Source: Bacteroidia bacterium
GTDB lineage: Bacteria > Bacteroidota > Bacteroidia > J057
Assembly: GCA_030430575.1 (NCBI GenBank)
Contig: JAUIKF010000040.1
Location: 1-64,000 of the forward strand
DNA length: 64,000 nt
Direction: 5' to 3'
Both the position numbers and the translations under genes were made by a program. Positions 34,742 to 39,385 of the stretch are shown piece after piece; within the stretch, counting starts at the first letter, position 1, and every line of letters starts with the position of its first letter. A model generated the notes under the pieces. The model was given only the letters and a program-made list of their open reading frames with translations, did not search any database and was not told the DNA's origin.

Positions 34742-34829
34742 TAGGTTAAAAAAACATACTATCTACTACTATTTTTGGGACATAGGGTATTCAATCCATA
34801 ATAAATAAAGCGTTTCGCTTCTTGATAGG

Positions 34830-34960
34830 GGGCTGGATTACGCAAAAGCCAACGCACCCTCTGGAAATCCAGCCCAGCACATAAGTTATGTGCCATAAAA
34901 CGCGCTTACAGCACGCTGTCGTGGATTTCGGCTTGTGCCAGGGCTTGTGGGTAATCCGCG
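34830..34960 (+). repeat. structured repeat element, copy A
   Basis: A 131-bp non-coding element with four successive hairpins: GGGCTGGATT/AATCCAGCCC (34830-34839, 34866-34875); GCACAT/ATGTGC (34877-34882, 34888-34893); ACAG/CTGT near 34908-34919; CGTGGATT/AATCCGCG (34920-34927, 34953-34960). A second copy with the same plan lies on the opposite strand at 39214-39351. It is antisense to the pepE gene and to the gene on the other side. It could be a structured RNA or a REP/MITE-type mobile repeat. Confidence 0.75.
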
Positions 34961-34968
34961 ACTGTGTC

Positions 34969-35012
34969 AAAGACAAAAGCCATCCCAAATAGTTAGGATG
35001 GCTTTTGTCTTT
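34969..35012 (-). terminator. terminator of the coiled-coil exported protein gene
   Basis: A perfect 17-bp stem (34969-34985 with 34996-35012) and a 10-nt loop. Read on the minus strand, the GGATGGC arm runs into TTTTGTCTTT. It lies 25 bp after the stop of the minus-strand gene at 35037. Confidence 0.85.
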
Positions 35013-39173: not shown

Positions 39174-39385
39174 CTAGTGCATCAAGCATTATATAATTAG
39201 CGGTTACTGAGGGGCGCGGATTACCCCAAAGATCCAGCCCTCCGAAGCCGGAAATCCGCGCCAGCTTGCTTGGCAACTAAGAAAACGCGCATTTATATGC
39301 GCTGGGCTGGATTTCTGGCGTGTGAGTTGGCTTTTGAGCGTAATCCAGCCCTAAACCCATAAGAACTTAGTGCTTGATGCACTAG
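39174..39385 (-). repeat. structured repeat element, copy B, with 15-bp inverted termini
   Basis: The core at 39214-39351 is copy B of the multi-stem element, in inverse orientation to copy A: stems 39342-39351/39304-39313, 39297-39302/39287-39292 (GCGCAT/ATGCGC) and 39253-39261/39214-39222 (GCGCGGATT/AATCCGCGC). It is bounded by a perfect 15-bp inverted repeat, CTAGTGCATCAAGCA at 39174-39188 and its complement at 39371-39385. It lies between the convergent 3' ends of the MscS and serine hydrolase genes. Confidence 0.75.

Follow-up and report, generated by a model that had tools for sequence, protein, structure and literature searches.

Two elements of shared architecture, one on each strand (copies A and B; Table 1), lie in the window, by which we mean the whole 64,000-nucleotide stretch that was analysed, and both proved to be members of a large dispersed repeat family. 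An initial annotation had placed a structured pair here, and both copies are indeed present: their 14-base start, GGGCTGGATTACGC, was found with at most one mismatch at 47 sites of the 8.16-Mb genome, compared with a single site for a reversed control pattern, which excludes chance, at least one of the 47 sites (L048) being no true copy. Within 1.08 Mb of the genome, made up of stretches picked around matches to the family, a profile gave 100 non-overlapping matches, 61 of them full length, and a covariance model built from 25 copies (R1) scored at least 150 matches, with many copies matched on both strands. The annotated inverse orientation of the two copies is correct as to strand, yet it means little because the element is quasi-palindromic, 59 of the 61 full copies matching the profile on the opposite strand too. 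The extent of about 135 bp describes the element itself, and copy B turned out to be the middle of a 212-bp unit ending in CTAG on both sides; the right arm of copy A is not intact. Directly after copy A, at 34969-35012, a terminator-like palindrome, AAAGACAAAAGCCATCC..GGATGGCTTTTGTCTTT, was seen by eye.

Table 1. Features assigned at the two loci
Feature	Position	Strand	Details
Copy A, probable REPIN: inverted REP hairpins P1 and P4 enclosing P2 and a weak P3	34830..34962	+	R1 115.8 bits, E 2.6e-28
REP hairpin P1 of copy A	34830..34875	+	10-bp stem 34830-34839 / 34866-34875, inner A·A mismatch and C·G pair
P2 hairpin of copy A	34877..34893	+	GCACAT/ATGTGC
REP hairpin P4 of copy A, the P1 unit inverted	34918..34962	+	10-bp stem 34918-34927 / 34953-34962, inner T·T mismatch and C·G pair
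Degenerate left arm, type A, at copy A	34785..34829, approximate	+	GTAGGCTGTTCAATC ... AAGCGTGTCGCTT in other copies; compared with L013, L019, L035; limits by eye
Copy B, probable REPIN	39213..39351	-	R1 119.7 bits, E 2.3e-29
Unit of copy B, 212 bp, CTAG at both ends	39174..39385	.	type B arms CTAGTGCATCAAGCA.. and ..TGCTTGATGCACTAG around the REPIN

Hairpin Architecture and Covariation

P1 and P4 are one hairpin unit in opposite orientations. The inner half of its 10-bp stem reads GGATT/AATCC and is followed inwards by a single mismatch (A·A in P1, equal to T·T in P4 on the other strand) and then a C·G pair, the stem halves being separated by mostly 26-28 bases. AGC follows the P1 stem and is invariant in the 25-copy alignment, with GCT immediately 5' of P4. 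This AGC foot was present in 61 of 61 units of the genome under study (G000) that were selected by core letters and, when a stem filter was applied, in 65 of 66 units of G000, 11 of 14 of G001 and 3 of 3 of G003. The canonical REP tetranucleotide GT[AG]G is absent at the 5' foot, which is AGC (GCT on the other strand). The initial annotation described both outer stems correctly apart from the length of P4, whose stem has 10 bp, and the limits of the copies, A ending at 34962 and B starting at 39213. Its contention that the structure is conserved and the sequence is not is incorrect for the core, where GGATTAC, GAAATCC and AGC are nearly invariant among the aligned copies.

Over the 25 aligned copies, 97.0% of cells are paired in P1, 98.2% in P4 and 90.7% in P2, and the double change from A-T to G-C between P2 of copy A and that of copy B is real; P3 is weak, with 56.9% of cells paired as aligned. 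Cells with both sides changed numbered 36, compared with 14.0 in shuffled alignments, and none of 500 shuffles reached 36, whereas the number of pairs with double changes (8), a weak measure, was matched by 45 of 500. For the five outer stem pairs, 280 of 305 cells were paired in 61 distinct units of G000 picked by core letters only, without the stem filter of the earlier counts (at least 8 or 9 of 10 pairs), and the shuffles gave a mean of 205.6 and a maximum of 227; these shuffle controls, for pairing as for covariation, leave the relatedness among copies in place. Further copies with more covariation, named in the initial annotation as the mark of a structured element, are both in evidence (100 matches in 1.08 Mb; 36 double-changed cells versus 14.0).

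Genomic Placement

The copies are largely extragenic. Open reading frames of at least 100 aa, as called by a crude procedure, overlapped 8 of 65 near-full copies (a set with slightly wider limits than the 61 full copies) compared with 1162 of 1300 places drawn at random from these loci. The adjoining genes were co-directional for 30 of the 65, convergent for 18 and divergent for 7, and 2 copies lay at edges; convergent gaps account for 18 of the 55 classified copies and for 77 of the 412 gaps counted there. Where the adjoining genes were co-directional, 17 copies were on the gene strand and 13 on the opposite one. At the gene ends of G001, a genome of the same genus, that match the neighbours of copies A and B, neither element was found by eye, and no alignable intergenic DNA was seen there, so that the comparison indicates absence only and gives no empty-site proof. 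A search of copy A against a plasmid collection returned no match, as did Rfam covariance models over the window at gathering scores. The extragenic placement, the strand counts and the absence in G001 are in keeping with mobile DNA, not with a conserved RNA gene.

A RAYT Gene Flanked by the Same Hairpins

The genome contains three Y1_Tnp loci. One of them, on contig C73 outside the window (L052:11143-11685), encodes a protein of 180 aa that scored 97.8 bits against the NCBIfam model for REP-associated tyrosine transposases (RAYT; NF047646, cut-off 80) and 31.3 bits against Pfam PF01797 (cut-off 23). Three P1-type hairpins lie upstream of this gene and three downstream, and the last upstream one is a complete putative REPIN ending about 30 bp before the ATG. 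No such hairpin was found within 1.5 kb on each side of the other two Y1 loci, of which L010 offers only 210 bp upstream before the contig edge. The Y1 transposase at L010 (G000:C77:1-2049) is of the IS200/IS605 type by NCBIfam (71.2 bits, cut-off 55) and is accompanied by three perfect palindromes of its own, TTGCGACGGGTTTAAACCCGTCGCAA, one upstream and two downstream.

The C73 protein carries the motifs LWQ and YIHQNP, an HuH-Y distance of 84 and the HuH motif SHLH. It lacks the NH[LIV]H form of RAYT group 5, and the relatives read show N, S or G at the first position; the motif readings leave aside the translations of L073, L074 and L075, loci used for their flanks. An alignment (A2) comprises 18 of 34 RAYT loci, L098, L099 and L119 having been left out for a stop codon each and the others because they were near repeats, too distant or too short. 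A fold model of the RAYT of G001 (L094), which is 77% identical to the C73 protein, had a mean pLDDT of 91.3, and its best match in the PDB was 4er8, the E. coli TnpAREP bound to a REP hairpin, with 17% identity in the fold alignment.

REP and RAYT Pairs in Related Genomes

In G001 the hairpins on either side of the corresponding RAYT gene keep the same core and have the outer stems GGCGG and GGGCC/GGCCC, of which GGCGG is not among the common stems of G000; the dispersed copies of G001 have GGAGC/GCTCC in 9 of 14 distinct units. In G003, a genome of the same family whose RAYT is 48% identical, the flanking hairpins read GGACT..AGTCC in place of GGATT..AATCC. This change of the core is compensatory and leaves mismatch, C·G pair and AGC foot as they were; one of the three distinct G003 units, a dispersed one (L181), still has GGATT.

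We compared the flanks of 26 RAYT loci (the 34 minus L117, L118, L120, L122, L123 and L125-L127) and found the same stem in both flanks at 10 of them, whereas of 96 control places taken from these contigs 1 had such a stem; one of the 10 positives (L116) is of low complexity, and the remaining 16 had no common flank stem in this strict scan. Across 22 genomes of the order, including that under study, R1 matches (E<=1e-6) occurred in 4, all among the 6 with a RAYT (E<=1e-15), and with looser limits in 40 genomes, again including our own, R1 was found in 5 and RAYT in 15, once more nested, a co-occurrence that rests on few and related genomes and counts a RAYT fragment in G006. The looped hairpin GGATTA..AAATCC was present in RAYT flanks of G000 and G001 (L071, L072, L094), and two matches at L124 were discarded as pairs of short-loop palindromes. 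A GGATT core universal in the clade is not supported, as many, more distant RAYT loci carry hairpins with unrelated stems.

Short-loop GGATT..AATCC palindromes were also noted near RAYT genes of a Bacteroidales MAG, Pontibacter indicus and Cloacibacterium normanense (L095, L096, L124), and may represent this REP core in a short version. Separately, G001 holds a second RAYT with its own hairpins within the one genome (L086, G001:C73:24540-25073; 56% identical), preceded by five short CGGCACTT-GG-AAGTGCCG hairpins at a spacing of about 29 bp.

The hairpins flanking the RAYT gene, together with the compensatory versions in relatives, assign the elements to a REPIN family of RAYT group 5 (TnpA subclass 2.6). 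We consider it highly probable that they are REPINs, that is, inverted REP hairpins with a structured spacer, and non-autonomous mobile DNA that depends on the C73 RAYT, an HUH/Y1 nuclease. Two suggestions of the initial annotation, a REP-like repeat and the target of a mobile system, are both upheld by the inverted REP pair, the many extragenic copies and the hairpins beside the RAYT gene. When such a region became single-stranded, each REP would fold and be recognised by the RAYT through its GGATT stem core, its A·A (T·T) mismatch and its AGC/GCT foot; the enzyme would cut near the foot and would move or copy the inverted pair in trans to other places. By analogy with TnpAREP of E. coli, the C73 RAYT may bind, cut and move these REPINs and may still act, and the AGC/GCT foot could be its guide or cut site. 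Points against this reading are the lack of a GT[AG]G foot, the SHLH motif, the 16 of 26 RAYT loci that were negative, the GGATT of L181 and an identity between copies that runs from CTAG to CTAG.

Nested Palindromes

Many copies sit between homologous inverted arms with CTAG at both ends. The 1.08 Mb examined contained 35 CTAGTG..CACTAG units, 27 of which measure 190-229 bp. In five identical 217-bp copies, identity is lost 41-43 bases before and 39-40 after the element, which is at CTAG, and the whole unit has accordingly moved as one; the last-moved unit was larger than the REPIN, and the mover may be something other than the RAYT. We distinguished by eye five arm types (A to E) and one hybrid (L021). 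The same arms, with 30-45 outer bases in common at no more than 20% mismatches, also surround other palindromic cores that lack this REP, and the elements of G001 have different arms, so that arms and REPIN are separable modules; the notion that the arms are part of the REPIN is weakened by these same observations. Target duplication outside CTAG, which is itself palindromic, was not clear in the 35 units (6 share 3 bp, with a shuffled mean of 1.55, and none shares 4 or more). Among the arm ends listed, many of which pair at about 180-510 bp, we noticed no transposase-carrying version with the same ends.

Two other cores were observed within CTAG-ended arms. One, about TTAGATTTCTCC..GGAGAAATCTAA with GTCATTTCGACG inside (L191, L192, L193 and L049:7761-8022), is perhaps another REPIN-like family. 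The other, about ACAAGAAATAAAAAAGTG..CCTTGTT, lies between type E arms (L188, L190 and L040:5197-5446), and L190 has a further insert that brings it to 511 bp in total.

At a deeper level, inserts of at least 12 bases in the longer full copies fell in the loops of P1 (12) or P4 (5) in 17 of 18 cases, these loops representing 54 of 136 positions. A small CCCTTCG..CTCAGGG repeat occurs in the loops, 11 times in P1, always one way round, and 6 times in P4, always the other way round, in a direct loop scan that favours copies with intact stems. Its orientation relative to the REP is the same in 17 of 17 counted (L012, L022, L025, L030, L046, L129, L137, L160 and others), which corresponds to fewer than 17 independent events, as several copies are related; in the partial copy L021, an inner piece of the repeat is reversed. 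One might speculate, in a reading that we hold to be rather unlikely, that the loops and centres of existing palindromes act as landing sites for further hairpin elements. CTAG-ended palindromes would then hold REPINs or other cores, and REP loops would hold CCCTTCG..CTCAGGG. If this were true, the target would be folded single-stranded DNA and not a sequence, and a group-5 RAYT would act at the middle level of the nest.

Alternative Explanations

The arms also raise the question of which unit is the mobile one. It could be a MITE, in which case a DDE transposase that targets CTAG or TA would move the CTAG-ended palindrome, about 190-220 bp long, with the REPIN as mere cargo, as the terminal inverted repeats, the 35 CTAGTG..CACTAG units, the five 217-bp copies whose identity stops there and the occurrence of the arms with other cores in place of this REPIN would suggest. 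We regard this explanation as doubtful but worth keeping in view, given that the arms vary between subfamilies A to E (as sorted by eye) and between G000 and G001 whereas the REP core is constant, that some copies have no recognisable arms, that no duplication of 4 bp or more was seen outside CTAG in the 35 units and that no transposase-bearing version was noticed among the arm ends listed.

Other explanations place the function of the hairpins in the host. The share of convergent gaps (18 of 55 copies versus 77 of 412 gaps) would suit palindromes that serve as terminators, mRNA stabilisers or gyrase or IHF sites and are spread by gene conversion and not by a RAYT, and such roles are reported for other REPs (PMC6006769); this is nonetheless improbable, as it leaves unexplained both the linkage to RAYT and the lineage-specific REP/RAYT pairs. 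The compensatory changes in P1, P2 and P4 would also be expected of a structured non-coding RNA or a cis-regulatory RNA element, and the former had been proposed in the initial annotation. That origin is very improbable and finds no backing in the Rfam search of the window at gathering scores or in the strand counts, which show no clear preference (17 copies on the gene strand, 13 opposite). Moreover, nearly all full copies match both strands, the same hairpins flank the gene for a single-strand DNA transposase, and both elements are absent at the corresponding gene ends of G001.

Comparison with Known Systems

RAYTs have reportedly been divided into groups by Bertels in 2017. According to PMC6006769, group 5 equals subclass 2.6, is mostly found in Bacteroidetes, has a median length of 179 aa and carries WQ and YIH[QN]NP; its REPs are 'atypical' structures beside the gene that lack GT[AG]G and recur at other genomic sites, and they had to be identified manually. 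The C73 RAYT resembles this group in its length of 180 aa, its WQ and YIHQNP motifs, its HuH-Y distance (84 versus a median of 82), its Bacteroidetes host, the hairpins beside the gene with dispersed copies and the absence of a GT[AG]G foot, and differs from it in SHLH versus NH[LIV]H (PMC6006769). The REPs of group 5 were compared by description, without their letters, and Table S1 of PMC6006769 could list the REP described here.

REPINs (PMC3116915) and BIMEs share with our elements a dispersed unit of inverted REPs and spacer, clusters beside the RAYT gene and an extragenic position, but here the loops are long (mostly 26-28 bases), there is no GTAG and the units are often set within larger palindromes. 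The E. coli TnpAREP requires a stem mismatch for activity and cuts at CT next to the REP (PMC8266576). Its complex with REP (PDB 4er8) is the best fold match and parallels the present system in the conserved stem mismatch and in a foot that is GCT/AGC here and CT there; the mismatch, however, is A·A/T·T here, and the E. coli enzyme belongs to group 2 with a GTAG guide. T-T mismatches are found in REP-related oligonucleotides of other bacteria (PMC7709200). In A. variabilis GTAG-15 (PMC3733652), too, an inverted REP pair occupies the centre of a long palindrome, but those palindromes were not found without REPs, whereas the arms described here hold other cores too.

In the open literature, we found no description of the REP of this clade, of compensatory variants or of a three-level nest, with the proviso on Table S1 made above, and among the titles listed the only work on REPs relevant to the phylum was PMC6006769 and PMC3733652. 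A defined REP with its mismatch and foot, together with REP/RAYT pairs in three related genomes, provides concrete substrates for binding and cleavage assays and allows testing of whether a foot other than GTAG works as a guide, and the nested build bears on the choice of sites by REPINs. The kind of system is already known, because PMC6006769, PMC3116915 and PMC3733652 describe group-5 RAYTs with atypical REPs, REPINs, and REP dimers in larger palindromes; what is new is the anatomy of this REP, the compensatory variants beside related RAYTs and the nested build.
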